Positions 5,565 through 24,409 are shown, counted from the first letter of the stretch. The stretch is 27,631 nucleotides of DNA from a virus (IMGVR_UViG_3300050020_000384:1-27631), one strand, 5' to 3'. Program-made: numbers and translations. The notes: generated by a model not told the origin, from the sequence alone.

Positions 5565-5617
5565 AACCCGCTCAGATTGGCCTAACTCCGCCTGGATTGG
5601 CCTAACTCTGCGGACAG
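5565..5617 (+). repeat. 53-base direct repeat family B, copy 1
   Basis: It is 52 of 53 bases identical to 8704-8756. Each copy contains two GATTGGCCTAACTC units spaced 20 bases apart. It is non-coding. The whole 5491-5737 gap consists largely of four different repeat elements, and no gene is seen there. Confidence 0.9.
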
Positions 5618-5674
5618 GGGGTTGCCTTGCGCCGGGGAAACGTTCCAAGTGGGCCAACTTAAAACAAGACGGCA

Positions 5675-8244: not shown

Positions 8245-8598
8245 ATGAACTGGAAATTTTGGCAGAAGCAAGACGGCGTGCAGGGGACTGCGCGCCCTAC
8301 CTATTTTTCAACGCCGCGAATTTTGACGGAGGCACAGCAGCAGCGCGCGAACCTGGAACGGCTGCTGGCGCTGGCGGGGATCTCCGATAGTCAGCCGGTC
8401 TGGAAGACGCTGCTGTCCTATGCCGATGAGCACGCGCGTAATGAGCAGGAAGCGGCGCTGGCCGCGAACCTGACGAATGACGTGCGGCAATACAACGCGG
8501 GCCGGGCGGCGAGTGCGCTGGATTTTGCCACGGCGTTGCGGGATCTCCGGATGCAAGCGGACCTGGAAGCCCGGAAGCTGGAAAAGAAAACAGGTTAA
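8245..8598 (+). CDS. Hypothetical helical virion-region protein
   Basis: This 117-residue protein is mainly alpha-helical after residue 25 (TEAQQQRANLERLLALAG; ALRDLRMQADLEARKLEKK), with no recognised domain. It lies between portal and scaffold, a position often used for head assembly factors. Its TAA stop falls in the first bases of a long hairpin repeat, so its end may have been reshaped by that element. Confidence 0.65.
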   Translation: MNWKFWQKQDGVQGTARPTYFSTPRILTEAQQQRANLERLLALAGISDSQPVWKTLLSYADEHARNEQEAALAANLTNDVRQYNAGRAASALDFATALRDLRMQADLEARKLEKKTG

Positions 8599-8691
8599 TA
8601 AGGAATCCAGGAAACCCGGAGAACTAAAACGGTGAATGCCCTGGTAAATTTTCTGTTTAAATCCTGGTTTCCTGGTCTCCTTATAAAATTC
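8594..8691 (+). repeat. Long hairpin repeat family C, copy 1
   Basis: The left arm (GTTAATAAGGAATCCAGG) is complementary to the right arm (CCTGGTTTCCTGGTCTCCTTATAAAATT), with an interior spacer. Two other copies lie at 15866-15959 and 19053-19131. The interval 8599-8865 (267 bases) holds this element, a 53-base repeat and a small hairpin, and no gene. Confidence 0.8.
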
Positions 8692-8703
8692 TCCTCCTTA
8701 TTT

Positions 8704-8756
8704 AACCCGCTCAGATTGGCCTAACTCCGCCTGGATTGGCCTAACTCTGCGGGCAG
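8704..8756 (+). repeat. 53-base direct repeat family B, copy 2
   Basis: It differs from 5565-5617 at a single base. Both copies sit in gaps of the head gene block, the first upstream of the portal and the second upstream of the scaffold-like gene. Confidence 0.9.
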
Positions 8757-8865
8757 TCTCTTCCCTTCTACTCTCTTTTCGTGGTTAGTGACCGCATCAC
8801 GCCAGCAAGAGGCTGGTAGCCGCACGGTCCCGGTTAACCCATGGACTGCCAAACTTGCGAAGAGC

Positions 8866-11860: not shown

Positions 11861-12307
11861 ATGAAAACAAACAGAAATCTTTTCGGGTTGCTCCTCTCCA
11901 GCAGTCTCCTGGCCCTGACAGCGGTGCTGCCGGCGCGGGCGCAGCAAATCAACATCCCCACGGACCTGGCCACCGTAGGCGCCAACGCCACGATTACCTC
12001 GACCAACGGCGTGGCGCTGACGTTGCCCAGGGACAAGGACATTGGCGTGCTGATCTCGCAGGCCGCGGCCAATACGGGCACCAGCAATACGGTCTATGGC
12101 TTCGATTACCAGGTGGGGACGACCTGGACGACCACGGCGCCGTTACGGCTGACCCTGGCCTGCACGGGCCTCACGAACACGACGGGTTATTTCTTCCTGT
12201 CCAAGACCAACTTTGCCGGCGTGAATGCGGCGCGGTTTGGTTATCTCTCGACGGTGGAGTTGACCAATGTGACGCCCGCCAGCATCACGTTTGATTGGAC
12301 GCACTGA
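11861..12307 (+). CDS. Exported small beta-rich protein with signal peptide
   Basis: The 148-residue protein begins with a classical Sec signal peptide: MKTNRN, a Leu/Ser-rich core (LFGLLLSSSLLALTAV) and LPARA before Q28, with a likely signal peptidase I cut after residue 27. The mature part (about 121 residues) is Thr/Asn/Gly-rich and looks like a beta-sandwich (TVYGFDYQVGTTWTTTAPL; SIT FDW at the end). It is unexpected inside a block of head genes. It may be a surface adhesin or fibre subunit, or an envelope protein made by lysogens. No family is recognised. Confidence 0.75.
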   Translation: MKTNRNLFGLLLSSSLLALTAVLPARAQQINIPTDLATVGANATITSTNGVALTLPRDKDIGVLISQAAANTGTSNTVYGFDYQVGTTWTTTAPLRLTLACTGLTNTTGYFFLSKTNFAGVNAARFGYLSTVELTNVTPASITFDWTH

Positions 12308-12347
12308 CGCGATTTGGGGACTCGTGTAACTCGTCCCTCCGAAAATC

Positions 12348-12770
12348 ATGGAAGTGGACTTTTCCAAGCTCGACCTGGCCACCGCCACACGGGTGGATGA
12401 GGTGATTCGTGGGGATTACAACGCCACGCTGTTGCAAGCGGCGGCCCGGCAGCGGCGCGTGGCGTTGCTCAATCGGCTGCACCGGCCCCTGGCCAAAGAC
12501 GGCTACGGCGAGCGGACATTGATGATTGATCCGGTGTTCGACGCTTACTGGCGCGAGTGTTACGGCAAACGTTATCTGGAAGACGCCGACCTGGTGAAGT
12601 TTCTGAAGCGGCGGAATGAGGAGATCATCGTGGAGAGCCGGGGGACGAAGGCGATTTTCGTGGGGTGGATGCCGTCAAGCCAGAGCAAGAGACCCGTTGG
12701 CTTGAAATCCGAATGCCGAATGCCGAATGTCGAAATCCGAAAGAAGTCCGAAAACCGAAATCCGAAATGA
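12348..12770 (+). CDS. Head-tail region hypothetical protein
   Basis: This 140-residue protein resembles phage hypotheticals with the pattern 'RTMRIDP...YW...F...VxSRGTK', seen here as RTLMIDPVFDAYWRECYG and IIVESRGTKAIFVGW. These are usually found near the head-tail genes; the function is not known. Its C-terminal 25 residues are encoded by a CCGAATG/CCGAAAT repeat (12704-12769), and the repeat supplies both its stop and the start of the next gene (ATGA overlap at 12767-12770). The natural C-terminus is therefore probably near residue 116. Confidence 0.7.
   Translation: MEVDFSKLDLATATRVDEVIRGDYNATLLQAAARQRRVALLNRLHRPLAKDGYGERTLMIDPVFDAYWRECYGKRYLEDADLVKFLKRRNEEIIVESRGTKAIFVGWMPSSQSKRPVGLKSECRMPNVEIRKKSENRNPK
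12704..12769 (+). repeat. CCGAATG/CCGAAATC tandem array
   Basis: About eight imperfect units of 7-10 bases (CCGAATG, CCGAATG, TCGAAAT, CCGAAAG, ...). It is entirely coding, creates the C-terminus of one gene and carries the ATG of the next. Confidence 0.8.
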
Positions 12771-13903
12771 GAACGGTTGATTATAGCGATGTTTTGTGCG
12801 GGAGCGCGGCGCTGGCGGGGTTGCAGGTGAGCGACCTCTCGCCGGCGGAATTCGCACTGTTCCGGGCGGCACACGATCGGCGGTTGCAGGTGGCGTGGGA
12901 ATGCCATCGCTGGCCGGAGATCTGCCGGTATGAACAACGCAGTTTTCGCGCGCCGTGGGATGCGGCCCATGCCTACGCGGCCGGGGATGAGGTGCTGGAT
13001 ATTCCCACGCTGACTTATTTGCAGGCGCTCCAGGCGAGCACCGGGCAGCCGCCGACGATTGCAAACGTGGTGAACCAGGCGTATTGGGCGCCGTGCCAGG
13101 CGCAGTATCAGGCGGACGATTACGTGGCGGGCACGAATTACGCGGTGGGGGCGATGGTGCGGAACCGGGCGGATAACGCGTTTTACCAGATGAACGCGCT
13201 GTCCCCCGACCGGCTTTTGACCGTCAATAACGCCCTGACCCTTCCGCCCAGCGTCGCCACGTTCGTTTTAGGGTACACCGGACTGGTGAATGGCCGGCCA
13301 GCGTATGCGGACGCCACCACATACCACACGTGCGATTGGGACGGCAACCAATGGCGGATTTATTATTTCGACTCTCTGCACACGCTGATTTTACACGCGC
13401 ACAGCCTGTCCGACGTGGCGACGCCGGACCGGGCCATGGACTGGGTGTTTGACGAGGGGACTTTCTTTGGCACCAGTCTGGCGCTGACCCTCCCTCCCCC
13501 CGCCCCGCCGCCTTCGGTCAATTGGGGCTTGCTGACGCCCTTCAACCGCTACGTGGGCTACGAACAGACCCTGGCGGACGGCACGCCGCTGATGCCGATC
13601 GGCGAGTTTCTCTGTGCGTGGGACCGGGACCCGCGGGTGACGACCAAGCTGACGCAGTTGCCCTACACGTTGAGCGCGGACGGCGCGCAGTTCATGACGC
13701 TGCGGCATACCCTGGCTTACGTGTGGCTGCTGCTGCGGGTGCGCCGGCCGCTGCTGACGGGCGACGCCTGGGGGACCACGACGGTCTATGCGTCTGGACA
13801 GCAGATGTATTTCGCGCCGGCGGCGGCGCCGGTGGTCCCGGCGAGCGGCAGCGGGGGCGGGATCGCCATTTCAGGCAGCGGTGGCGCAGTCGGAGTCGGC
13901 TAA
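12767..13903 (+). CDS. Virion protein with carbohydrate-binding-like modules (3' half split off)
   Basis: This 378-residue protein has an N-terminal helical region (LSPAEFALFRAAHDRRLQVAW, to residue 44) and then modules of the W...aYxxGdxV...yYxxl...gqxP...W type, like small carbohydrate-binding domains: residues 64-110 (PWDAAHAYAAGDEV ... YWAP) and 113-145 (QADDYVAGTNYAVGAMV). After a conserved body (NWGLLTPFNRYVGYEQT; CAWDRDPRVTTKL; about 250-330) a third module begins at 333 (DAWGTTTVYASGQQMYFA). It is cut short and replaced by a Gly/Ser/Ala tail. The missing half of this module matches the start of the gene at 15586. A structural head-tail or adhesion protein is likely; the exact role is unknown. 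Start ATG 12767 overlaps the preceding stop. Confidence 0.7.
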   Translation: MRTVDYSDVLCGSAALAGLQVSDLSPAEFALFRAAHDRRLQVAWECHRWPEICRYEQRSFRAPWDAAHAYAAGDEVLDIPTLTYLQALQASTGQPPTIANVVNQAYWAPCQAQYQADDYVAGTNYAVGAMVRNRADNAFYQMNALSPDRLLTVNNALTLPPSVATFVLGYTGLVNGRPAYADATTYHTCDWDGNQWRIYYFDSLHTLILHAHSLSDVATPDRAMDWVFDEGTFFGTSLALTLPPPAPPPSVNWGLLTPFNRYVGYEQTLADGTPLMPIGEFLCAWDRDPRVTTKLTQLPYTLSADGAQFMTLRHTLAYVWLLLRVRRPLLTGDAWGTTTVYASGQQMYFAPAAAPVVPASGSGGGIAISGSGGAVGVG

Positions 13904-13904
13904 T

Positions 13905-14582
13905 ATGAAAAAACTTATTACCGTTATCGCTTGGGGGCTGGTCACGGTGCTCGGCCGGGCCACGCCGATCACCATTACCGACGGCAACGGGCACGTCGTG
14001 ACCATCACCCCCATCAGCGAGTATCCCAATGATCCCGCGCCCTCCAACGGAGTGTTGTTTGTCATTGCCCATCCCGGCGGGACCAACTTCAACGTATCGA
14101 AGTTGCAACTGTTCCAACTCCTCAGCACGGATCCGCTGGTCCGCAGTAATTTACAGGCGTCGGGCGGCCTCAACGGAACCAATGGGATGAATGGCACGAA
14201 CGGGTTGCCGGGGGCGGCGGGGGCGCCCGGCACGAACGCTCCGATCGTCACCAGCGGCCAGGTCTTTCTGACCACGCAAACGAACCTGCTGTTTGACTTC
14301 GCGACGGCGCAAAACTACCAGGTGTTTTCGACCTACACCAATACGGCAGTTCCAGTCACACTGTCGCTGACCAACATCGTGATGCCGACGAATGGGTTTC
14401 AGAGCCTGACGATTGTGCTAAGGAACCTGGCTACGAATAACCTGCACTATGTGCTTCCGGATGGAATCAATTGGACAACGAACTATCCGGCCAACACGAA
14501 CCTTCCTTCGGCAGGTTTTCAACTAATCCAATTGCTTTGCGAACCGACGAGCGGAACCAACAACAGCATTATAGGATACTAA
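13905..14582 (+). CDS. Signal-peptide fibre protein with collagen-like segment
   Basis: This 225-residue protein starts at ATG 13905, one base after the previous stop. Residues 1-19 form a probable signal peptide (MKKLITVIAWGLVTVLGRA). A beta-rich part follows, then a short Gly-X-Y run (GLNGTNGMNGTNGLPGAAG and onward, about residues 87-111) typical of collagen-like trimeric stalks in phage fibres and bacterial adhesins, and a beta-rich C-terminal head (about 115-225) rich in Thr/Asn. The stop overlaps the next start (TAATG). It forms a cassette with the following LamG-like gene. Likely a trimeric fibre or exported adhesin. Confidence 0.75.
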   Translation: MKKLITVIAWGLVTVLGRATPITITDGNGHVVTITPISEYPNDPAPSNGVLFVIAHPGGTNFNVSKLQLFQLLSTDPLVRSNLQASGGLNGTNGMNGTNGLPGAAGAPGTNAPIVTSGQVFLTTQTNLLFDFATAQNYQVFSTYTNTAVPVTLSLTNIVMPTNGFQSLTIVLRNLATNNLHYVLPDGINWTTNYPANTNLPSAGFQLIQLLCEPTSGTNNSIIGY

Positions 14583-15589
14583 TGAGACGCTGGCTTTTAA
14601 TCTTGGGTTCCATGTTGGCACTGCCCCTGTCGGCGGCGACGACCAACTACCTGTCGGTGGTGGGAAAGACGATGCAGGGACATTTTCTGCTGATTGATTC
14701 CACCAACACCCCCTGTTCTCCAACCAATATAAGCGGTTATTCAAGGTTTATTACGGTGGGACAGACAGTAGAATCGTGGGGAACAGAGTATTTTGGAACC
14801 CTGACTGGATGCGGTTATGACGGTTGGTGGGTTTCGGCAAATGATATGAATGGGACTCAGATTCCCTGCCACTCTTGTGTATCCAACAATTACCTGCTAT
14901 GGCTGAAGGCTGATGCGGGTGTGTATTCCGATGCTGGCCCCTCTCCTACCGTTCCTGCTATCAATGGTCAGCCGGTTGGTCAATGGAATGACCAGAGCGG
15001 GCATGGATATAATGCGACCACCAATGTTGCTGGTGGCTATGCTCCTATTTATGTGACTAATGCTGCAAATGGATTACCAGCCGTAAAGTTCGAAGGTCTT
15101 GGAACAGAGGGACTGCTTAGTTCTAATGCAAGTTATTCTATGCCTTATGCAATCTTTGTAGTCTTCAAACCAATGGGTAATGCTTCAGGAACACTTTATG
15201 AAAGTGTAAATCGAAATGGAACTAATGGGCAAATAATACTAGAATTTGTCAATAACAACAACTTAGAGATGTATGGCGGTGATGGTATAAATGGAAATAT
15301 ACTTCAAAGTGACATATCAATACCCACCAATGCACTGACACTTGTTACATGTGTTTTCAATGGAGACAGTTCTGTTCTTAGAATAAATGGAGCAATAGCC
15401 TGTCCTGCCTGTACTAATGATTCTATGGCCTTTAGTCCGGCTTTTTCTGTTGCTACAGAACCAAGAACTTCACTTTTACTAGAGGCTAACATGGCTCAAG
15501 ATGTGTATTATTTTGAGGTCATCATTACGACAGACCTTTCACAAGTAGGTAGCACGGAAGCCTACTTGAAGACCAAATACGGACTATGA
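14582..15589 (+). CDS. Signal-peptide protein with LamG/concanavalin-like lectin domain
   Basis: This 335-residue protein begins with a signal peptide (MRRWLLILGSMLALPLSA, cut near 18-19). After a Cys-containing linker, residues about 105-335 form a LamG/ConA-like domain: LLWLKADAGVYSDAG, GQWNDQSGHGYNATT, GLPAVKFEG, then beta strands, and the typical ending YYFEVIITTDLS ... EAYLKTKYGL. Such domains bind sugars, which suits a receptor-binding or adhesin role. From about 14,830 to 15,590 the DNA is markedly more AT-rich than its neighbours, pointing to recent acquisition of this domain. Start ATG 14582 overlaps the previous stop. Confidence 0.8.
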   Translation: MRRWLLILGSMLALPLSAATTNYLSVVGKTMQGHFLLIDSTNTPCSPTNISGYSRFITVGQTVESWGTEYFGTLTGCGYDGWWVSANDMNGTQIPCHSCVSNNYLLWLKADAGVYSDAGPSPTVPAINGQPVGQWNDQSGHGYNATTNVAGGYAPIYVTNAANGLPAVKFEGLGTEGLLSSNASYSMPYAIFVVFKPMGNASGTLYESVNRNGTNGQIILEFVNNNNLEMYGGDGINGNILQSDISIPTNALTLVTCVFNGDSSVLRINGAIACPACTNDSMAFSPAFSVATEPRTSLLLEANMAQDVYYFEVIITTDLSQVGSTEAYLKTKYGL

Positions 15590-15852
15590 GCGGCAACTTT
15601 TACACGTGTGTCGCGGTCACGGCCGCGGGCGAAAGCCCGGAGAGCGCACCGGCCAAATGGGCGGTGGTGGAGCTGCCCTACACGTTCCGGCAATACCTGA
15701 TCCAGGGCGGCTATGCGGACTGGCTGACGGCGGATGGCCAGACGGACAAAGCCGGCGCGATGGAAGGCGTGGCGCAGCAACTCCTGGAGATGGAAGCAGA
15801 CAAGCTGCAACGGCAGCAGGGACAAGTGGGGCGACTCAACTGGAAAGGCTGA
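15586..15852 (+). CDS. Virion protein fragment completing the carbohydrate-binding-like module
   Basis: This 88-residue protein starts by ATGA overlap with the LamG gene. Its first 30 residues (GNFYTCVAVTAAGESPESAP, AKWAVVELP) are the second half of a W..Y..G..V...FYxC.A...GxxP...W module whose first half ends the gene at 12767-13903. The rest (FRQYLIQGGYADWLTADGQ; QQLLEMEADKLQRQQGQ) is a helical segment common at the C-terminus of phage virion proteins. It is probably the separated C-terminus of that protein, now with a new start. It may still assemble with its partner as a split protein. Confidence 0.65.
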   Translation: MSGNFYTCVAVTAAGESPESAPAKWAVVELPYTFRQYLIQGGYADWLTADGQTDKAGAMEGVAQQLLEMEADKLQRQQGQVGRLNWKG

Positions 15853-15855
15853 ACT

Positions 15856-17130
15856 ATGAATACCGAAAATTTTAATAAGGAAACCAGGAAACCAGGTCGG
15901 GATTTTGGAAACAGCCGGCGGGGAAAATTCTCATGGCTTCCTGGTCTCATTATAAATTGCTTGCTGTTGTCGGTTTTGCCCGCCCACGCCTATCCGCCCG
16001 GGCCGGCGAGCCAGGCGCAGGTGAATGCCGGCACGGAGCCGTATCTGTATGTGACGCCCAAGACGCTGGCAAACTCAACGATCACCGTCGCCAGCGCAAC
16101 CACGGCGGGGACGGCGAACTCACTGACCAATTTCGGCCTGTCTCACATGCTTTATGTGGACAAAAACGGAAATAACAGCAGCGCGGTTAGAGGTGACTTT
16201 ACCCATTCTTGGGTGACGAGTGCCGCACTCTTCGTTGCCACAAACGGCGACTGTGTTCGATTTGGCAAAGGGTCGTTTAGCCTGCCCAGCACTGTTTTAA
16301 GCAATGGGGTTAGCGTAAAGGGCTTGGGTGTGAATCTAAGTGTTTTAACCGGAGTCTTGGAAGTAAATTCATCCAATCAAATTGAGGGTTTGACATTTTC
16401 TGATTACATTCACTCGACGAACGCCTTCAACGGATTGACTCTTGAAGGAGTTCAAGTGGGTACCCTAAGTACAATAGATTGCATCCTTTCCAGTGTCAGT
16501 GGAGGTGGGACAAATGTGACGGTGAACAATTCAACTTTTTTTAGTTATTGGGATATAGGCGCGGGCATCGGCGGCGGAACGTGGAACAACGACCAAATAA
16601 TAATGTCCGATGCCGCTGCTCCAAACTACTCGGCTGGAATGCACGCTTATTACATCAGCGGCGACAACAGCACGTTGATTATAAATGGAGGAATTGTGAA
16701 CATGACGGCTACGGTCGCTTCCAACTATTTCATACTAGGAACAAATCACAATGATGGTTTCATCGTTTACAACTACACGCAAACCCCGCCGACCAATGCG
16801 TCTGTCCGGATTTATGGAACGGTGTTCAATCACAGTGCGGCGGCTGGTTCGCGGCCAATCAATGCAATTGTAAATCCTAATAGACAGACCAACATCTTCG
16901 GATGGTATTGGGACAACAGCGTGTTGACATTCGTGAACGGCACGAACATCTATCAGCCTTACAACCTCGGGACCTTCACCGGCAGCCTGATTTACCCCAT
17001 TTTAACAACCGGGCCAGCGGGCATCACCAACGGCTTGAGCGCCACTTGGAACAGCAACGGCGTCGCCACCTGGCTGCGTTACTCCGCCGTGGGCGCAACC
17101 ACCAACACAGACAAACAACTCGCCCCGTGA
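15856..17130 (+). CDS. Tail-fibre/spike-like beta protein with repeat-derived N-terminus
   Basis: In this 424-residue protein, residues 1-30 are translated from a hairpin repeat (NFNKETRKPG ... FSWLPG). A hydrophobic stretch ending LPAHA (31-45) then looks like a signal peptide with a long n-region. The segment QVNAGTEPYLYVTPKTLANS (about 55-74) is typical of phage fibre N-terminal regions. Residues about 95-370 have many short strands and Asn/Thr/Gly repeats (VNNSTFF, TLIINGGIVNM), consistent with a beta-helix spike or adhesin. The central DNA (about 16,150-16,900) is lower in GC than both ends, suggesting exchange of the receptor-binding part. No catalytic residues were recognised. Confidence 0.7.
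   Translation: MNTENFNKETRKPGRDFGNSRRGKFSWLPGLIINCLLLSVLPAHAYPPGPASQAQVNAGTEPYLYVTPKTLANSTITVASATTAGTANSLTNFGLSHMLYVDKNGNNSSAVRGDFTHSWVTSAALFVATNGDCVRFGKGSFSLPSTVLSNGVSVKGLGVNLSVLTGVLEVNSSNQIEGLTFSDYIHSTNAFNGLTLEGVQVGTLSTIDCILSSVSGGGTNVTVNNSTFFSYWDIGAGIGGGTWNNDQIIMSDAAAPNYSAGMHAYYISGDNSTLIINGGIVNMTATVASNYFILGTNHNDGFIVYNYTQTPPTNASVRIYGTVFNHSAAAGSRPINAIVNPNRQTNIFGWYWDNSVLTFVNGTNIYQPYNLGTFTGSLIYPILTTGPAGITNGLSATWNSNGVATWLRYSAVGATTNTDKQLAP
15866..15959 (+). repeat. Long hairpin repeat family C, copy 2 (coding)
   Basis: Left arm TTTAATAAGGAAACCAGG pairs with right arm CCTGGTCTCATTATAAATT. It encodes the first ~30 residues of the fibre-like protein and puts a basic n-region ahead of its signal sequence. 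Confidence 0.8.
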
Positions 17131-17135
17131 AATAA

Positions 17136-17414
17136 ATGTCCACCGCTGAACTTCCTGAAAAAGTGAAAATGAATGTGACGGCCATCGTCGCCATCGTCAT
17201 TGCGACGTTTGCGCTGGGCAAGGTCTATTTTGACAACAACCATCGGTGGGACAACCAGGACCGAATCAACGCTCAAACGTCCGCCGCGATTGAACGGTCG
17301 GTGGTAACGCTGGACCGGGTGACTCTGACGCAAAATATGCTGGCGCGGTCGGTCTCCGCCGTGGAAGCGAAGGTGTTCAACGTGGCGCCGGCTTTTCCAA
17401 CCGAACCAAAGTAA
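17136..17414 (+). CDS. Single-span membrane protein of the lysis cassette
   Basis: This 92-residue protein has one membrane segment at about residues 13-33 (MNVTAIVAIVIATFALGKVY) and a hydrophilic, helical C-terminal half (QTSAAIERSVVTLDRVT). This layout suits an inner spanin or a holin regulator, with the C-terminus outside the membrane. Three bases separate it from the holin-like gene. No specific family recognised. Confidence 0.65.
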   Translation: MSTAELPEKVKMNVTAIVAIVIATFALGKVYFDNNHRWDNQDRINAQTSAAIERSVVTLDRVTLTQNMLARSVSAVEAKVFNVAPAFPTEPK

Positions 17415-17417
17415 TCC

Positions 17418-17813
17418 ATGAGCGCGTTGTTGACCAAAGCAAAAGAACAAATCCTGATCTACTGGATGGTGGGATTTTACGTTTTTCTTTTTTCCGGCGT
17501 TGCGCTTGGAACGTCGTGGCAGACGGCTACGGCGGGCGTCAACTGGTCTGAGGCCGATCATGATTCAAAGGTTCGCATGATCGTCGGAATACTTGTGACT
17601 TGGGGCACGGTCATGATGGCCTTTCTGAACAAAGCCACATCCAAAGTATTGCAGGGAGAATTGCCAATCGGTGAGGAAAGGACCTTTGAACGGTCAACCA
17701 AGGCAACGGATGAGACCGGGAAAGTCACCGAAGAAAATGTCAAGCAGTCAATCACAGCCGCAACACCAACCACGCCGGAGGTTCCGGCACAACCAAAGGA
17801 AATAAAATTATGA
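17418..17813 (+). CDS. Holin-like two-span membrane protein
   Basis: This 131-residue protein has two membrane segments: about 12-34 (ILIYWMVGFYVFLFSGVAL) and about 54-73 (MIVGILVTWGTVMMAFLNKA). A charged C-terminal tail is rich in Thr/Glu/Lys. Two segments and a polar tail fit a class II holin that would form membrane lesions to release the endolysin. The last bases overlap the next start (ATGA). Position in the lysis block supports the call; sequence alone would not. Confidence 0.6.
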   Translation: MSALLTKAKEQILIYWMVGFYVFLFSGVALGTSWQTATAGVNWSEADHDSKVRMIVGILVTWGTVMMAFLNKATSKVLQGELPIGEERTFERSTKATDETGKVTEENVKQSITAATPTTPEVPAQPKEIKL

Positions 17814-17974
17814 GCATGGGTCTCTTATTCTGGATCATCATGGTAGTCGGACTCTTGTTCGGCTTCTACACCAACCGCACAACGCCCCTGCTCTGGGCCA
17901 GCAACAGTCTCGTGCTGTGGATCCTGCTCGCCCTGTTGGGCTGGGCGGTCTTTGGCCCGGCCCTCCATCGGTAA
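17810..17974 (+). CDS. Small two-span membrane protein (54 aa), lysis cassette
   Basis: This short gene starts by ATGA overlap with the holin-like gene and stops at TAA 17972-17974. The protein is MGLLFWIIMVVGLLFGFY, a short loop (TNRTTPLLW), and SLVLWILLALLGWAVFGPA, ending LHR: two membrane helices and almost no soluble part. Very similar small proteins with 'LLFWIIM...LLGWAVFGP' occur beside lysis genes of other phages, with unproven function; a holin or antiholin is likely. Confidence 0.7.
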   Translation: MSMGLLFWIIMVVGLLFGFYTNRTTPLLWASNSLVLWILLALLGWAVFGPALHR

Positions 17975-17987
17975 TTTCACGACGGCA

Positions 17988-18015
17988 AACATTCAACATT
18001 CAACATCCAACAACG
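17988..18015 (+). repeat. CATTCAA/CATCCAA tandem array
   Basis: Imperfect 7-base units (AACATTC, AACATTC, AACATCC, AACAACG). It is non-coding, between the small membrane gene and the lipoprotein, and ends just before the ribosome site (GAAAGGAAAA). Confidence 0.75.
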
Positions 18016-18030
18016 AAAGGAAAACAGAAA

Positions 18031-18519
18031 ATGAAAAACAAAATGTTAGCATTCATGACGACGGCAGCTTGTCTGGCCGTCGGTCTTACCCTCCTCACCG
18101 GCTGCAACTCTGCTCCCCGGCGGGACATCATTGCGGTTAAGTCCACCGTGCTCGGCTTTGACGTCTCCGCTGATGCGGTGTCGCAGATTCCCCACGTCCG
18201 GCTGGGACTGATTCGGAACTTTTACCAGATGATTCCGGTGGCGATCGGAAGCTCGTCCAACCAGCAAGCCTCAGTGCAGACTCCGAACTATGCCACCAGC
18301 ATGGCGGCGGACATGGGGCTGACGTCGCAGCAAGGCGCGGAGGAATTCGCCACGGGCAATGCGGCTGACTTGCAAACCAAGTCCAACACCACGGCTCAAA
18401 TCGGAGCCGCCAAGTTGCGCGGCACGGCTTTGGTGCTGACGGGACTCTCGCCGGCCGTAGGCACCGCGTCGGGGGTGATTACGAATATCGTTCCAGTCAC
18501 CGGCACGAACGCGCCGTAA
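18031..18519 (+). CDS. Phage lipoprotein in lysis cassette
   Basis: This 162-residue protein starts at ATG 18031 behind GAAAGG. It has a basic start (MKNK), a hydrophobic core and the lipobox LLTGC with C25 as the lipidated residue, so it is a lipoprotein exported by Sec and cut by signal peptidase II. The mature part contains VRLGLIRNFYQMIPVA, seen in other phage hypotheticals. Lying between holin-type genes and the hydrolase, it could act like an outer spanin, but it is longer than usual ones. Upstream start 17917 is rejected because it would bury the lipobox. Confidence 0.75.
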   Translation: MKNKMLAFMTTAACLAVGLTLLTGCNSAPRRDIIAVKSTVLGFDVSADAVSQIPHVRLGLIRNFYQMIPVAIGSSSNQQASVQTPNYATSMAADMGLTSQQGAEEFATGNAADLQTKSNTTAQIGAAKLRGTALVLTGLSPAVGTASGVITNIVPVTGTNAP

Positions 18520-18524
18520 ACAAA

Positions 18525-18574
18525 CCCCTCACCCCGCCCCTCTCCCCGCTGGGGCGGGGCGAGGGAGTGGGAAA
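18525..18574 (+). repeat. Palindromic repeat family A, copy 4
   Basis: CCCCTCACCCCGCCCCTCTC faces GGGGCGGGGCGAGGGAGTGGG in a long GC-rich hairpin, filling the gap before the hydrolase. Its purine-rich end may also serve as the ribosome site for ATG 18581. Confidence 0.8.
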
Positions 18575-18580
18575 AACGCC

Positions 18581-19039
18581 ATGCGCATCCTGCTTTGGAT
18601 CCATCAACCCGGCGCGCCGGTGAGCGAAGCCATTGCGTATCTGACGCATGGCGACGTGACGCACGCCGGGTTTGAGCGGGCCAATGGCCGGGTGCATGAG
18701 CTTTCTCCCCCGGGAGTGCATGACCGTGATTTGTCGGACGCGGAACGACCGTTCGTCCATGCGTTCCGACTGGACGGCATCACTCCCCAAATGGAGAGCC
18801 AACTGGAGCGGCTGTTTGATCTGAACCTTGCCGCCGGCATCAAGTACAGCTACTACGATTTGCTCCGGTACGAGTTCAACATCGCGCAGGACGGCGACCA
18901 GCAAAGCTACTGCTCACGCTATGTGATGCACGACCTGGCGTTGTGCCGCTGTCCGCTGCCACTGGCGCGGTGCACGCAGGACCAGGTGACGCCGTGGGAT
19001 CTGTGGCGGGCCACACGGCTTATTGAGGAACCCCTGTGA
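18581..19039 (+). CDS. Permuted NlpC/P60-like hydrolase (endolysin candidate)
   Basis: This 152-residue protein has the layout of circularly permuted NlpC/P60 (YiiX/YaeF-like) enzymes: an N-terminal His in GDVTHAGF (H28), a middle region (YYDLLRYEFN), and a C-terminal catalytic Cys in QQSYCSRYV (C111). Such enzymes cut peptide or amide bonds; here the cell-wall peptide is the likely target because it directly follows holin-like and lipoprotein genes. No signal peptide is seen, so it would depend on the holin to leave the cytoplasm. The rest of the active site is not certain. Confidence 0.7.
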   Translation: MRILLWIHQPGAPVSEAIAYLTHGDVTHAGFERANGRVHELSPPGVHDRDLSDAERPFVHAFRLDGITPQMESQLERLFDLNLAAGIKYSYYDLLRYEFNIAQDGDQQSYCSRYVMHDLALCRCPLPLARCTQDQVTPWDLWRATRLIEEPL

Positions 19040-19052
19040 AACACGGAGGAAG

Positions 19053-19131
19053 AAATTTAATAAGGAAACCAGGAAACCTGGAGGAATACCGGGAAAGAAA
19101 TCCTGGACTCCTGGTTTCCTTATAAAATTCC
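19053..19131 (+). repeat. Long hairpin repeat family C, copy 3
   Basis: AAATTTAATAAGGAAACCAGG and CCTGGTTTCCTTATAAAATT arms are nearly perfectly complementary. The element ends four bases before the start codon of the next gene, leaving no normal ribosome site. Confidence 0.85.
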
Positions 19132-19134
19132 GAC

Positions 19135-21069
19135 ATGAAACGTTACCGTCAATACGGTCCGCTGGATGATGTCCCGGAGGTGTTCGGGGACATGCAGTTT
19201 GCGCGGCTGGACATGAAGACGGACCCGGCCACGCTGCCGGCCGGCTCGCTCCAGGTGTGCGAGAACATGCGGTTTGATACCAACGGCCTGTCCGTGCGCG
19301 GCGGCACGGCCCGGCAATTCCCGGCGGGCACCAATATTGGCCCCATCCTGGGGTGCGGCATTTACAAGCCGATGGGGGAGAACGACCGGCTGGCGTTCGT
19401 CACGCGCACCACTCTGGTGCTGTTTGATCCGGAAACCCGGGAGATCACGCCGTATGCGTTTCCGGCGGGCGAGACGGTGGCGGTGGGCGAGGCGTTGGAT
19501 CTGATCCAGGCGGGCATTGGGGCCGGGGGCACGTTGCCGGAGTTGTTTATTTTGCGGGGGCTGGATCAGACCGTGCTGCGCTTTACCGGCAGCGCCGTGG
19601 TGGTGGATAACGATGTGCCGAAGAGCCGGTTTGGCCTGTTTTACCAGAACCGGCTGGCGGTGGCGAGCGGGTTGCAGGCGTTGAGCACGAGTGATTTCCT
19701 GGCGTGGGGCGCGGGCCATTGGGCGTTGCTGGCCCAGTTCCAGATCGAATGGGGCGGCGCGGATTATCTGGTGGGAGCGATGGCGTATCAGAGCGATTAC
19801 GTGCTGATTGGCAGCCGCAAGAAATGGTTTCTGGCCTATTTCGATCCCGGCCTGGCGACGGCGAATCCGTACGTTGGCCCCATTGCCAACACGTCTTTCT
19901 TGCGCCTGCAAACGGGCGAGGCGGGGCCGGTGGGCAAGGAAGCCATGCTGGAGAGCGCGGGCCTGGTCTGGTTTGTCACGGACAACGGCATTTATGCCTT
20001 TCAACCCAATTTGAACAATCAACTGGTGGTGCTGGGCCAGCCGATCAGCGCGGACATTCAGCCGGTGTTCAAGTATTTGAGCGCGGCCTATGCCACGGTG
20101 GCCAACATCAAACGGTTTGGGTATCGTCTCTATTTTGCGCTGCCCATTTCCGACCCGCCCATCGCCATCACCGGCATCTCGTCGGTGGTCAACCCCACCA
20201 GTATCAACCCCGACCTGCCACAGGACCTGCCGTTTAACCTGTCGGCCGGCAACATGGTCACCGTCACCACGGCGGCGCGGCACAATCTGGCGATTGGCGA
20301 CCGGGTGCAACTGACCAACATCGCCGGGGGCAAAATCAACGGGTCGTATGATGTGGCGAACATCGTGGATGATTTCAAGTTCTCCTTTTCCGCGGATATC
20401 ACCGGCGACGTGCTGCTGGGCACGCGGGCGACGTGCCAAAAACTGGCCATGCGCAACAACACGATCGCGGTGTTCAATTTGAACAATCGGGCGGCGGACC
20501 ATCCGCTGGGCGCGTGGGAGAGCATTGACAGCCTGCCGGACGGGTTTTACGCGGACTGGCTGCGGATTGCGGATTTTGGCACGCAACGGCGGTTATGGGT
20601 GGTGGATGCGAACAACGGGCCGGCGCTCTATGAGGAGGGGGACGTTGACGAGATAGGCGACGTGCTGGGCGGCGTGCAATTGCCTTTTGAACTGCCGGTG
20701 GATTTGAGTGCGGCCAACTTTGCGAGCGTGCCCATTCCGGGCCGGTTTGTGAGCCGGGCCTACCGCTGGGAACCGGACCTGGGCAGCGGCCACGGCACGA
20801 TTGCCTACGTGCGCAAGGTCCGCGCCAGTGAAGTGCGCTTGCGGTTAAACCCAGGCGACACGGGCACCGTGATCACGCGGCTGCGGACGCCCAACCGGCC
20901 GCTGGTGGAACAGACGGAACCCTTTGACGGCGCGACGCAGGCGGATGTCGCGGTGCTCAAACGGCCGGGGCAGCGGGCGCTGGAGGTGGAACTGGAAGTG
21001 ATTGCCACGGCGGGCCGCCCCACGGTGCGCGCGCTGGAAGTGCAGGTAATGAGATCTGGACAATACTGA
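19135..21069 (+). CDS. Phage stabilisation/propeller-like tail protein
   Basis: This 644-residue protein resembles podoviral stabilisation-type tail proteins: an early LPAGSLQVCENMRFDTNG and VRGGTARQF (about 34-64), then repeated beta blades with RFGLFYQNRLAVASG, YVLIGSRKKWFL and LVWFVTDNGIYAF. It would sit in the tail hub/knob. An inserted segment at about 340-445 (TTAARHNLAIGDRVQLTNIAG, INGSYDVANIVDD) looks like the common small domain 'HGLxxGDxVxIxgxxG...NGxxxVxxVdxxxF', which is placed within the blades. Start ATG 19135 follows hairpin C3 directly and has no clear ribosome site. Confidence 0.7.
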   Translation: MKRYRQYGPLDDVPEVFGDMQFARLDMKTDPATLPAGSLQVCENMRFDTNGLSVRGGTARQFPAGTNIGPILGCGIYKPMGENDRLAFVTRTTLVLFDPETREITPYAFPAGETVAVGEALDLIQAGIGAGGTLPELFILRGLDQTVLRFTGSAVVVDNDVPKSRFGLFYQNRLAVASGLQALSTSDFLAWGAGHWALLAQFQIEWGGADYLVGAMAYQSDYVLIGSRKKWFLAYFDPGLATANPYVGPIANTSFLRLQTGEAGPVGKEAMLESAGLVWFVTDNGIYAFQPNLNNQLVVLGQPISADIQPVFKYLSAAYATVANIKRFGYRLYFALPISDPPIAITGISSVVNPTSINPDLPQDLPFNLSAGNMVTVTTAARHNLAIGDRVQLTNIAGGKINGSYDVANIVDDFKFSFSADITGDVLLGTRATCQKLAMRNNTIAVFNLNNRAADHPLGAWESIDSLPDGFYADWLRIADFGTQRRLWVVDANNGPALYEEGDVDEIGDVLGGVQLPFELPVDLSAANFASVPIPGRFVSRAYRWEPDLGSGHGTIAYVRKVRASEVRLRLNPGDTGTVITRLRTPNRPLVEQTEPFDGATQADVAVLKRPGQRALEVELEVIATAGRPTVRALEVQVMRSGQY

Positions 21070-21079
21070 AAATTTATAA

Positions 21080-21094
21080 TCCCGCAGTGCGGGA
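21080..21094 (+). repeat. Palindrome family D, short copy
   Basis: TCCCGC-AGT-GCGGGA, a six-base stem, shares its loop and stem with the copy at 23144-23163. It is non-coding, in the gap before the next fibre gene. Confidence 0.6.
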
Positions 21095-21128
21095 CAGGAA
21101 ACCAAGAGGGAAGGATTAAAAATTAACT

Positions 21129-22148
21129 ATGAAAATAAAAATTAAAATTCTGATGGTGGGTTGGCTGGCCGCCACGCTGGCTTCCGCCAACCAACTCGAA
21201 AAGGGCCATACCTACACGGATGTGGGTCCGGGCAAAACGGTGACGAGCCAAAACCTCAATGATCACGTGGACCTGGCCGTGCTGTTGAATGGCGCGATCC
21301 TGGACCAGGAGGCCAAAACCACGACGGTGGAGACGGACAGCGTGCTGCTGGGCGATTCCGCCATCGCGTCCGATGGCGCGCCCAAGCGAGTGACGCTGGA
21401 TAATCTGCTGCCGGAACCGGAACGGCTGAATGTGCCGCAGTATGTGGCCACGGACACGGGCGTGGCCAACGCCTATGTGGTGAGTTATACGCCCGTCATT
21501 GCGGCGTATCACGCCGGCATGGTCATCCGCTTTCTGGCGGCCAATACCAACAGCGGCGCCAGCACCCTTAATTGCACGTCGCTGGGGACGACCAAGACGA
21601 TCAAAGCCCGGTCGGGCGCGGACCTGGCGGCCAATGATATTCTGGCCGGCCAGGTGGTGGAGCTGGTGTATGACGGCACCTATTTCCAGATCCTCACGAT
21701 TCCGCAACCGCTGGTGTTTCCGGATCCCTACGGCTATACCACCGCGAGCAATCTGGCGGTGGGAATGCTCGCGAGCAACGGCTTGACCAACGGCGTGGGC
21801 ACGGTGATGAAGTTCACCTCGGCGACCGCCGGCGTCACCAACGGCAGTAAAATCCTGGACACGGCGCATGGGTTGCCCGGCACGCCCAGCCTCGTGCGGG
21901 CGGTGATGGTGTGCCAAACGGCCACGCTGGGTTACACCGTGGGGGATGAAGTGGACGTGGCGGCCGTGGGCCTGGACGTGGCGCACTCCTCGGCGAGCGC
22001 GCAATATTTCACGTTCGGCGCCAACAGCACCAACGTGTATGTGACGACCTGTTTCGGCATCACCGCCGGCCTGGCGAACAAAACCAGCGGCGTGGTCACC
22101 GTCACGACCAACAGCCTCTGGCGCGTCAAAGTCTATGCGTGGTACTAG
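21129..22148 (+). CDS. Signal-peptide fibre-like protein
   Basis: This 339-residue protein has residues 1-20 as a signal peptide (MKIKIKILMVGWLAATLASA, cut before N21). The mature part carries a domain common in phage tail fibres: TDTGVANAYVVSYTPVIAAY, GMVIRFLAANTNSGAST, and ILAGQVVELVYDGTYFQIL (about residues 108-195). A second beta-rich domain (about 220-339) follows, also Thr/Val-rich and without Cys-based catalysis. A signal peptide on a recognisable fibre domain is the clearest example in this window of exported virion-type proteins. Confidence 0.8.
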   Translation: MKIKIKILMVGWLAATLASANQLEKGHTYTDVGPGKTVTSQNLNDHVDLAVLLNGAILDQEAKTTTVETDSVLLGDSAIASDGAPKRVTLDNLLPEPERLNVPQYVATDTGVANAYVVSYTPVIAAYHAGMVIRFLAANTNSGASTLNCTSLGTTKTIKARSGADLAANDILAGQVVELVYDGTYFQILTIPQPLVFPDPYGYTTASNLAVGMLASNGLTNGVGTVMKFTSATAGVTNGSKILDTAHGLPGTPSLVRAVMVCQTATLGYTVGDEVDVAAVGLDVAHSSASAQYFTFGANSTNVYVTTCFGITAGLANKTSGVVTVTTNSLWRVKVYAWY

Positions 22149-22186: not shown

Positions 22187-23167
22187 ATGGAAACGCTCTT
22201 GTCAAAACGTCTGGACGGGCCGTTGACCGCGGAACGCATCGAGCGCGTCGAGGCGGCGATGCTGCAACTACCGCAGCCGGAGTGCCCGCTGGTGCACCGG
22301 TTCGCGCCGGGCGTGTGCATTCGCGAGGTGCGCATGCCGGCGGGGGCGCTGGTGATTGGCCACGCGCACCGGATCGCGGACTTCAATATCCTGCTGCAGG
22401 GGCGGCTGACGCTGTTGATGGAGGATGGCTCGCTGAAGGAAGTGAGCGCGCCGTTGACGTTTGTGGGCACGCCGGGACGCAAGATTGCCTACGTCCACGA
22501 AGAGGTGACCTGGCAGAACGTCTGGGCCACCCGAGTCCAAGGTCCAAAGTCCAGAGTCCGGAGTCCAGAGTCCGGAGTCCAGAATCCGCCCTCAACCACT
22601 TGGATTGAGTTGGGGACGGACATCGAGGCCATTGAGGCGTATTACCTCGATAAGAGTCCGGGCTGGCAGGCGGACCGCGCGCAGCGGCTGGCGCTGGCCC
22701 GGCTGACGCGACAGGGAGACCGGGAGGATTTTGAGCGGTTTCTCAAAGAAGAGGGGTTGACGGCGGAATGGGTGCGGACGGTGAGCGAGAATGAGGGCGA
22801 TCAGGTGGCTTTCCCTCAACCCTCAACCCTCAACCCTCAACTTGATGTTAGCAAAGTAATGGTGGGACCGTCCGCCATTGAGGGCAAGGGATTGCTGGCC
22901 ACGGGACAATTTGCCGCGGACGAAGTGATTGCGCCGGCGCGGGTAGCGGGCCGGCGGACGCCGGCGGGGCGCTACACGAATCACAGCGCCGCGCCGAATG
23001 CGCAGATGGTGGCGCGGGAGAATGGGGACGTGGATTTGGTGGCGGTGCGGGCCATTGCCGGTTGCCGCGGGGGACAACCAGGTGAGGAAATTACGGTAGA
23101 TTACCGGCAGGCCCTGGCCGCCGGGAAACCGCGTAAAGACGCTGCGTCCCGCAGTGCGGGACGGTAA
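22187..23167 (+). CDS. Cupin-SET domain fusion protein
   Basis: The 326-residue protein has two recognisable domains. Residues about 34-115 form a cupin: IREVRMPAGALVIGHAHRIAD with H59 and H61, FNILLQGRL, and later H104 in YVHEE; a metal site is likely, though Asp (D65) replaces the usual Glu. Residues about 223-308 match a compact SET methyltransferase: SAIEGKGLLAT, then GRYTNHSAAPN (N265-H266-S267), and GEEITVDY (299-306, Y306). SET enzymes transfer methyl from SAM to lysine. The stretch between (about 135-208) is helical. Two tandem repeats lie at the domain borders (22533-22587, 22813-22841), and a palindrome at the end gives the tail KDAASRSAGR. The role is unknown; modification of virion or host proteins is possible. 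Confidence 0.8.
   Translation: METLLSKRLDGPLTAERIERVEAAMLQLPQPECPLVHRFAPGVCIREVRMPAGALVIGHAHRIADFNILLQGRLTLLMEDGSLKEVSAPLTFVGTPGRKIAYVHEEVTWQNVWATRVQGPKSRVRSPESGVQNPPSTTWIELGTDIEAIEAYYLDKSPGWQADRAQRLALARLTRQGDREDFERFLKEEGLTAEWVRTVSENEGDQVAFPQPSTLNPQLDVSKVMVGPSAIEGKGLLATGQFAADEVIAPARVAGRRTPAGRYTNHSAAPNAQMVARENGDVDLVAVRAIAGCRGGQPGEEITVDYRQALAAGKPRKDAASRSAGR
22533..22587 (+). repeat. AGTCC tandem array between cupin and middle region
   Basis: About seven AGTCC-containing units (GAGTCCAAGG, CCAAAGTCC, AGAGTCCGG...). It is coding (GPKSRVRSPESGVQNPP) and frame-preserving, exactly at the cupin border. Confidence 0.85.
22813..22841 (+). repeat. CCCTCAA tandem array between middle region and SET
   Basis: Four perfect 7-base CCCTCAA units; the reverse complement (TTGAGGG) occurs at 5478-5508 and 11802-11828. 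It encodes the linker PQPSTLNPQL before the SET domain. Confidence 0.9.
23144..23163 (+). repeat. Palindrome family D, coding copy
   Basis: GCGTCCCGC-AGT-GCGGGACG encodes the last residues (ASRSAGR) of the cupin-SET protein; the gene's TAA lies just downstream. Confidence 0.7.
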
Positions 23168-23191: not shown

Positions 23192-24409
23192 ATGTCAGCC
23201 TTAGCTGTGGTAGGAGTCGTCGCAGGAGTAGGCGCTCTGGCCAGCACCGGAATGGCCATTGCCAACGCGGTATCGGGACCGTCAGTGCCCAACGCGCCCG
23301 CCACCACCGGCGCGGGCGGGGCCAGCTCCTCCAGCGCCGCGCAAACACCGTATGACCAGATCGCCGCGCAGATCAAATCCACGCCGGCGAGTTATCGGAT
23401 GCAGGCGCAATATAATCCGCAGTTTGCGGCGCTCAATTCCACCATTGCCTGGCAGAATTTATTTGGTTCGCCGGACATGCCCACCACCATCTCCGCCACG
23501 CAGACGGGCTGGTATGATGCGGCGGGCAATTATCTGGGCGACAGCTCCATGTTTGACGCGGCCGGACACCCCGGCTCCACCACCCCGAAGCCGCCGGCCG
23601 GAGCGAAGCATGTGGTCCAGGGCAACCCTTTGCAGGTCGTGCGGTCCGCGCCAGGCTCGCTGGCCACGGCGGAAGCCGCCCAGCCGCGCCTGCTGGCCAT
23701 GCAGACGGCTTCGCGCACGCAAGACATCGCCGATGTGGCCAAACTGGGACCGGCCGCTTACGGCGCCATGCGGGCGTATGACCCCACGGTCACGGGCCTT
23801 TATGACACGATGGGCAAACAGACGCAGTCGTTGTTGGACACCAACGGCGCGCTGGATCCGTTTCTTACGCGGGCGTTGCAGCAAAATTACCGGGGCGCCG
23901 AGGCGTCGCGCGGCATGGCGGGCGGCACCGGCGATGCGGCGATGGAAGCGTATTATCTGGCCGCAACGCAGGAACAACGGAGGCTGGCCAATCTGAATGT
24001 GGCGGGCACGGTGGCGGGCGAGACGGCGGGTTACTACGGCGATCCCTTCGTGCAAGTGCTCGGGCGGACCAGCGGCGGCGTGCAAGTGCCGGGAATGACC
24101 TACACGGCCAACCAGCCCAGCGGCATACCCGGGCAAACGAACAGCACGCTCAGCTCGTCCACCTCGACGGGCGCGAACCAACTGTTGCTGGATCAATATC
24201 AAGCGCAGGTGAAATCACAGAATGCGAAATACAATCAACAACAGCAGGGCATAGCCGGTCTCATGGGCTTGCTTTCGCCTAGTGGCAGCGGTGGTTTAAC
24301 CGGCGCTATCTCTGGACTGGGAAATTATTTCAGCCCGCAGCCGTCCGCCCAGACGCAAGGCAATGTGGGGGCTTCGATTGCCGCCGGACTTGTGCCATCG
24401 TGGTATTAA
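23192..24409 (+). CDS. Internal virion / DNA-ejection-type protein
   Basis: This 405-residue protein starts behind AAAGGA. It begins with a hydrophobic stretch (VVGVVAGVGALASTGMAIAN, residues 6-25) that could insert in a membrane, then Ala/Ser/Gly-rich sequence. YNPQFAALN (about residue 75) and the segment around 205-260 (LDPFLTRALQQNYRGAEASR, GMAGGTGDAAMEAYY) resemble phage internal core or pilot proteins released into the cell during DNA entry. The C-terminus is Gln/Gly/Ser-rich. It precedes two further proteins of the same kind, as in podovirus ejection clusters. Function is by analogy. Confidence 0.65.
   Translation: MSALAVVGVVAGVGALASTGMAIANAVSGPSVPNAPATTGAGGASSSSAAQTPYDQIAAQIKSTPASYRMQAQYNPQFAALNSTIAWQNLFGSPDMPTTISATQTGWYDAAGNYLGDSSMFDAAGHPGSTTPKPPAGAKHVVQGNPLQVVRSAPGSLATAEAAQPRLLAMQTASRTQDIADVAKLGPAAYGAMRAYDPTVTGLYDTMGKQTQSLLDTNGALDPFLTRALQQNYRGAEASRGMAGGTGDAAMEAYYLAATQEQRRLANLNVAGTVAGETAGYYGDPFVQVLGRTSGGVQVPGMTYTANQPSGIPGQTNSTLSSSTSTGANQLLLDQYQAQVKSQNAKYNQQQQGIAGLMGLLSPSGSGGLTGAISGLGNYFSPQPSAQTQGNVGASIAAGLVPSWY

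Follow-up and report, generated by a model that had tools for sequence, protein, structure and literature searches.

The virus record IMGVR_UViG_3300050020_000384:1-27631 (27.6 kb; here called the window, meaning the whole stretch of 27,631 nucleotides that was analysed) carries a structural operon like those of short-tailed phages, in which five genes, SP1 to SP5, were described by the first-pass annotation as starting with leaders for the general secretory (Sec) pathway. The five N-termini agree with the translations and with the upstream sequences. Leaders were scored with a home-made log-odds model of the n-, h- and c-regions, trained on 29 known Escherichia coli Sec leaders; left-out positives scored 5.9 to 30.6, and the 95th, 99th and 99.9th percentiles of random N-termini were 2.7, 7.4 and 12.5. 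The hallmarks of a Sec leader cut by signal peptidase I (a basic n-region, a hydrophobic core of 7-16 residues and small residues at -3 and -1) are strong in SP1, SP3 and SP5, borderline in SP2 and atypical in SP4. The scores (Table 1) divide in the same way: three of the five leaders are strong, that of SP2 is borderline, and that of SP4 fails when taken alone, its 0.2 reflecting an unusually long n-region. Internal methionines of the window proteins all score <=4.9, and the terminase, portal, scaffold, capsid, adaptor and tail hub are all without a leader. The protein encoded at 23192 (p23192) reaches 13.3, yet it has no basic n-region, and its Gly/Ala-rich N-terminus resembles that of an ejection protein.

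Leadered proteins at this position of the operon are a property of the lineage. The window was compared with nine phages that are related to it or similarly organised, namely G002, G003, G004, G007, G008, G018, G019, G020 and V3, the last, which is the closest relative, being a 41.9 kb bacterial-genome contig of an uncultured Verrucomicrobia subdivision 3 metagenome-assembled genome (MAG) with an 85% identical capsid protein. Every protein on the whole contigs was scored, and a slot was defined as the interval after the tail-adaptor gene and before the holin/lipoprotein and tail-hub genes. The first-pass observation is confirmed in part and reaches further than it described, with leadered proteins occupying this one slot in all ten phages. 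Among slot proteins of at least 200 residues, 14 of 17 pass the leader threshold (one with a corrected start), compared with 4 of the 82 structural proteins encoded elsewhere (Fisher p about 5e-11, a value that overstates independence because the phages are akin). In-frame starts were picked by eye in G002, G004, G007 and G020, which favours leaders somewhat. The slot proteins under the threshold (SP4, a 696-residue protein of V3 and the G007 protein) have a leader visible by eye, and three of the four passing proteins outside the slot have the Gly/Ala-rich N-termini of ejection proteins, which lack a basic n-region. Chance or mis-called starts were rejected as an explanation, because the leaders recur at the same slot of ten phages and the SP5 gene has no other start codon close to where the mature protein would begin.

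By the same scorer, leadered fibres were absent from the control phages C75C1, P8625 and LUZ24. C75C1 (GenBank OQ984151) is the sole GenBank phage with a homologous portal; its gene order is that of the window (portal, scaffold, capsid, adaptor, fibre, small proteins, head closure Hc3, tail fibre), but its portal is only 26% identical and its own fibre proteins are leaderless. In zth2-2, whose host we take to be a member of the Lentisphaerae (the record does not state it), the fibres likewise have no leader, one borderline score of 7.4 coming from an N-terminus without a real hydrophobic core. The phage leaders are similar to leaders of the putative host, down to glutamine at +1, which is seen in 10 of 33 predicted host leaders (sampled contigs of G017, a Verrucomicrobia subdivision 3 MAG) and in about 8 of 18 phage leaders. 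Gln at +1 is common in both samples but short of a majority, while the Q-rule, by which most signal peptidase I substrates have it, has been described as Bacteroidetes-specific (PMC5837995). A similar case is provided by the Nixviridae of Porphyromonas gingivalis, in which phage genes of unknown function carry host-style Sec leaders with Gln at +1 according to the Bacteroidetes Q-rule, although the host belongs to another phylum and the proteins are not presented there as fibres encoded at a constant structural slot (PMC10367356).

The leader of SP4 is supported by comparison with relatives, five of which (V3, G002, G004, G019 and G020) have a leader immediately before the same mature domain. 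In the alignment of these six phages, which concerns SP4 only, the leader sequence diverges while the mature motif is kept, the behaviour expected of signal peptides. The motif, of about 30 residues (PATQAQVNAGTxxYxxVTPxTLA), directly follows the leader in all six, and homology is limited to the first ~50-80 residues, reaching somewhat further between SP4 and G019 and between G019 and G020. A conserved, anchor-like N-terminus followed by a variable C-terminal body is found in the SP4 family only (six phages); as read from the alignment, leader, motif and swapped bodies together give the layout that receptor-binding proteins docked on virions usually have. P22/T7-type tailspikes and fibres are built alike, with a short conserved N-terminal virion anchor and unrelated bodies behind it; to our knowledge, those described are synthesised in the cytoplasm and have no leader. 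The capsid profile finds no match in G019 and G020, yet both retain the order of leadered fibres, lipoprotein and hub-like protein. The motif also occurs within a leaderless 96-residue protein of contig L068 and therefore does not by itself entail a leader.

A dispersed palindromic repeat with ATAAGGAAACCAGGAAACC arms occurs at three places in the window (8591-8693, 15868-15960 and 19053-19130; six arms observed, none expected by chance). The second copy lies in frame in SP4 and provides the long basic n-region of the leader together with some of the hydrophobic core, and the V3 orthologue has an ordinary short leader. The acceptance of this insertion by the SP4 leader would fit a segment that is discarded. 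Two looser matches of the repeat occur in the Verrucomicrobia MAG. The beta-helix-like body first ascribed to SP4 did not emerge from a single-sequence model, which had a predicted local distance difference test score (pLDDT) of 33.

SP5 matches PHROG 28171, which has no annotated function, over residues 102-167 (E 2.1e-6; 13 viral relatives of that region), and it belongs to a family whose genes are placed like those of tail fibres. Proteins of the SP5 family follow the hub gene in V3, G002, G003, G004, G008 and G018, all of them leaderless. The V3 orthologue begins MQQLAGGTNYT and aligns with the NQLEKGHTYT that follows SA in the window, that is, at the predicted cleavage point. Loss of a V3 leader by an upstream frameshift was rejected, there being no hydrophobic leader upstream in any frame. 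A leader would thus have been gained in the window, or lost in V3, exactly at the cleavage point, and gain is the simpler of the two, because neither the six orthologues nor the counterpart in C75C1 has one. The fibre and adhesin labels of the first-pass annotation are borne out in part only; the collagen label of SP2 (Pfam Collagen, 16.1 bits) and the LamG label of SP3 (Pfam Laminin_G_3, 18.7 bits) stay under the curated cut-offs of 27.2 and 27.6.

Across the phages the slot is filled by large fibre-like or glycosidase proteins. The leadered ones are rich in N, T, S and G and low in Lys+Arg (1.5-5.3%), and many have several cysteines. The slot protein of G007 has a GH43/GH32-like domain. A leadered protein of G008 (L049 2153-4072), just after the tail hub and outside the slot, is GH27 alpha-galactosidase-like (Melibiase_C 34.8 bits, cut-off 22.9; Melibiase_2 20.4 bits, cut-off 23; PDB 1ktb, E 8.6e-11). 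By eye, the 696-residue V3 protein and a 685-residue G018 protein look like SGNH esterases and a 639-residue V3 protein looks like a beta-helix tailspike; none of the three has a Pfam match, and the PDB holds no sequence relatives of the 696-residue protein or of SP3. No peptidoglycan hydrolase domain was matched by Pfam or PHROG in the leadered proteins, which sets them apart from exported endolysins. SP3, SP4 and the lipoprotein of the cluster have no relatives among GenBank phages.

Table 1. Features of the window; positions are counted from its first nucleotide, and residues after "then" follow the predicted cut
Feature	Position	Strand	Leader score	Remarks
Terminase	369			structural operon
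Portal	5738			structural operon
Scaffold	8788			structural operon
Major capsid protein, SU10-type	10125			Pfam SU10_MCP, 127.6 bits
SP1, putative exported protein, 148 residues	11861..12307	+		between p11233 and p12348
SP1 Sec leader	11861..11941	+	19.1	MKTNRNLFGLLLSSSLLALTAVLPARA, then QQ
p12665, N-terminal part of tail-adaptor-like protein	gene 12665-13903, adaptor part 12767..13903	+		truncated relative to all relatives
SP2, 225 residues	13905..14582	+		collagen-like GXN/GXP run; Lys+Arg 1.5%
SP2 leader, borderline	13905..13961	+	7.1	MKKLITVIAWGLVTVLGRA; ~99th percentile of random N-termini
SP3, LamG/ConA-like, 335 residues	14582..15589	+		
SP3 Sec leader	14582..14635	+	13.6	MRRWLLILGSMLALPLSA
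p15586, C-terminal helical part of adaptor-like protein	15586..15852	+		separate gene in the window only
SP4, fibre-like protein, 424 residues	15856..17130	+		
SP4 leader	15856..15990	+	0.2 alone	long n-region, LPGLIINCLLLSVLPAHA, then YPPG; position conserved in relatives
Palindromic repeat, in frame in SP4 leader	15868..15960	+		codons 5-35
Fibre motif, anchor-like, mature N-terminus of SP4	15991..16095	+		PASQAQVNAGTEPYLYVTPKTLA; common to six phages
Two small membrane proteins, holin candidates	17136-17414, 17418-17813	+		putative, from hydrophobic segments
Lipoprotein, 162 residues	18031..18519	+	17.9	MKNKMLAFMTTAACLAVGLTLLTGC, lipobox LTGC; sixth export candidate, absent from the first-pass annotation
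Conserved NlpC/P60-like protein, 152 residues	18581..19039	+		assigned by eye; adjoins lysis module
Tail hub / head closure Hc3-like protein, leaderless	19135..21069	+		C75C1 homologue annotated head closure Hc3
SP5, fibre-family protein, 339 residues	21129..22148	+		
SP5 Sec leader	21129..21188	+	17.7	MKIKIKILMVGWLAATLASA, then NQ
SET/cupin fibre protein	22187-23167			PHROG 34170; Pfam SET, 26.2 bits
Ejection-like proteins	23192 onward			structural operon

The adaptor-like gene of the window is split. Its two parts, p12665 and p15586, form one protein in the alignment of all eight relatives that cover the region, and in the window they are separated by a two-gene insertion, SP2 and SP3, with starts and stops that overlap or adjoin; the adaptor may work here as two chains. 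The V3 orthologue, modelled with a pLDDT of 70, gave weak, consistent Foldseek matches to podovirus tail adaptors, the gp11/gp4 type being the fold in question (SU10, N4, KHP30 and others), and no PDB match at E<=0.001, and some of the weak viral matches are named tail tubular protein A or head to tail adaptor. The G+C content of third codon positions is 0.38 in SP3 and 0.59 in SP4 and about 0.80 in core phage genes, a deviation by which these genes are probably recent arrivals. A leadered SP3 homologue (MKQIVTILFVVLSGIAFG, then QN) is found in L029/L030. SP1 has no relatives in viral contigs, and its gene is missing from the phage relatives of the window; the idea that it is a leadered copy of its neighbour p11233 was rejected, the two proteins being unrelated.

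The lipoprotein is 69-83% identical in the viral contigs L034, L035 and L037, where the only other window protein detected is the NlpC/P60-like hydrolase, in L035 alone (80% identical). By this distribution the pair looks horizontally mobile. The hydrolase, which is 45-50% identical in L012/L030, has neither Pfam nor PHROG matches. The capsid protein has ten viral relatives at 56-86% identity, fragments among them, and an eleventh at 41%. Because V3 is binned in a Verrucomicrobia MAG and the palindromic repeat weakly matches the same MAG, Verrucomicrobia are the probable hosts of this phage group. Two further kinds of repeat were noted. The gaps that precede the portal and scaffold genes share a direct repeat of 64 bp with 91% identity (5565-5628 and 8704-8767), possibly a promoter or regulatory site. 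Intergenic-type repeats are translated within coding regions at 12704-12767 and in the genes at 22187 and 25577, a kind presumably associated with Verrucomicrobia genomes. The protein at 22187-23167, whose N-terminus is short-tail-fibre/cupin-like and which ends in a SET domain, is related to a protein of Rhodoferax phage P26218 (45%).

Tailed-phage assembly is taught as cytoplasmic. From the leaders, their conserved slot, the mature motif with its swapped bodies, the predicted glycosidase domains and the leaderless controls, we infer that virion proteins of this lineage may be exported, cleaved, folded in the periplasm and docked to virions. The most likely course of events, to which we would give not quite an even chance, is that, after export and processing, the leadered fibres fold in the periplasm and are joined to virions when the cell lyses. 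Accessory fibres and depolymerases would leave through the host Sec pathway, and once signal peptidase had cut off the leader, the new N-terminus would present a short motif for docking. The cleaved proteins, several with cysteines, would fold and then wait in the periplasm until the holin/lipoprotein/hydrolase module opens the envelope, and departing virions would take up the fibres as the final assembly step. Tentatively, and short of an even chance, this could be a tailed-phage lineage that completes its virions outside the cytoplasm, with Sec-exported fibres, a motif unmasked by signal peptidase and attachment during or after lysis only. Of the explanations offered in the first-pass annotation, attachment after lysis or assembly in the periplasm is the best supported, with predicted export conserved across ten phages. 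Late attachment would best account for the shared motif and for SP5, and it is chemically plausible since tailspikes of the P22 type are able to attach to particles in vitro. As the leadered window genes adjoin lysis-type genes, export and release could be coordinated.

Several points weigh against fitting at lysis. The shared motif is present in only 6 of 17 slot proteins, the leaderless SP5-family fibre of the relatives could be the sole virion receptor-binding protein, and virions made in the cytoplasm would have to meet periplasmic fibres efficiently. Some leadered proteins also have the look of free enzymes (GH43-like in G007; GH27-like in G008, just outside the slot). In the main rival explanation, the leadered proteins would be soluble depolymerases or adhesins that never join virions, and that stay in the periplasm, are freed at lysis and degrade or loosen the extracellular polysaccharide of neighbouring cells, aiding the spread of progeny. 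This explanation, somewhat less likely than fitting at lysis, would account for the enzyme domains and for the leaderless virion fibre kept in relatives, and it fits the proximity to lysis-type genes equally; the conserved N-terminal motif with swapped bodies is of no obvious use to a free enzyme, however, and SP5 is a fibre-family protein whose leader was apparently gained. Exported phage proteins have well-known precedents in the spanins. Endolysins with true signal peptides are also known in phages, and Lys44 of Oenococcus phage fOg44 and the signal-arrest-release endolysins are, like the proteins considered here, Sec-exported late proteins, held outside until the holin acts, although they are lysis enzymes and not fibre- or tailspike-like (PMC6116005).

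Display on the surface or in the periplasm of infected cells, for instance for superinfection exclusion, receptor masking or aggregation, is improbable. The cluster does include a lipoprotein gene, and phage-encoded exported proteins of this type exist (lambda Bor and Lom, T5 Llp); nevertheless, the leadered proteins are large and, lipoprotein apart, have no C-terminal sorting signal or membrane anchor recognisable by eye, the slot and motif are typical of tail fibres, and many different large proteins take up the slot, so that the cell-surface decoration first envisaged is not borne out. It is equally unlikely that the hydrophobic N-termini are mispredicted or are retained membrane-affine or trimerising segments of cytoplasmic fibres, since, for all that the scorer is home-made, scores SP2 and SP4 weakly and responds to Gly/Ala-rich ejection proteins, basic n-regions, hydrophobic cores and small -3/-1 residues recur among the slot proteins, and the leaders are host-like, free to diverge and in one case even took in a repeat.

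Our search of the open-access literature turned up no account of tailed phages whose fibre-type proteins carry a conserved Sec leader. The Verrucomicrobia phage P8625 likewise has genes for a ConA-like protein and tail fibres; it differs in being a siphovirus and has no leader at threshold by our scorer, and its authors reported no signal peptides with SignalP (PMC4642752). If several phage groups do place a conserved Sec leader on their fibre-type proteins, determinants of host range would arise in a different compartment, where periplasmic folding and disulfide chemistry are available, and exported fibres could be shared among the virions of co-infecting phages. The Sec leader would then also serve as a direct sequence mark for exported depolymerases and adhesins of uncultured phages.

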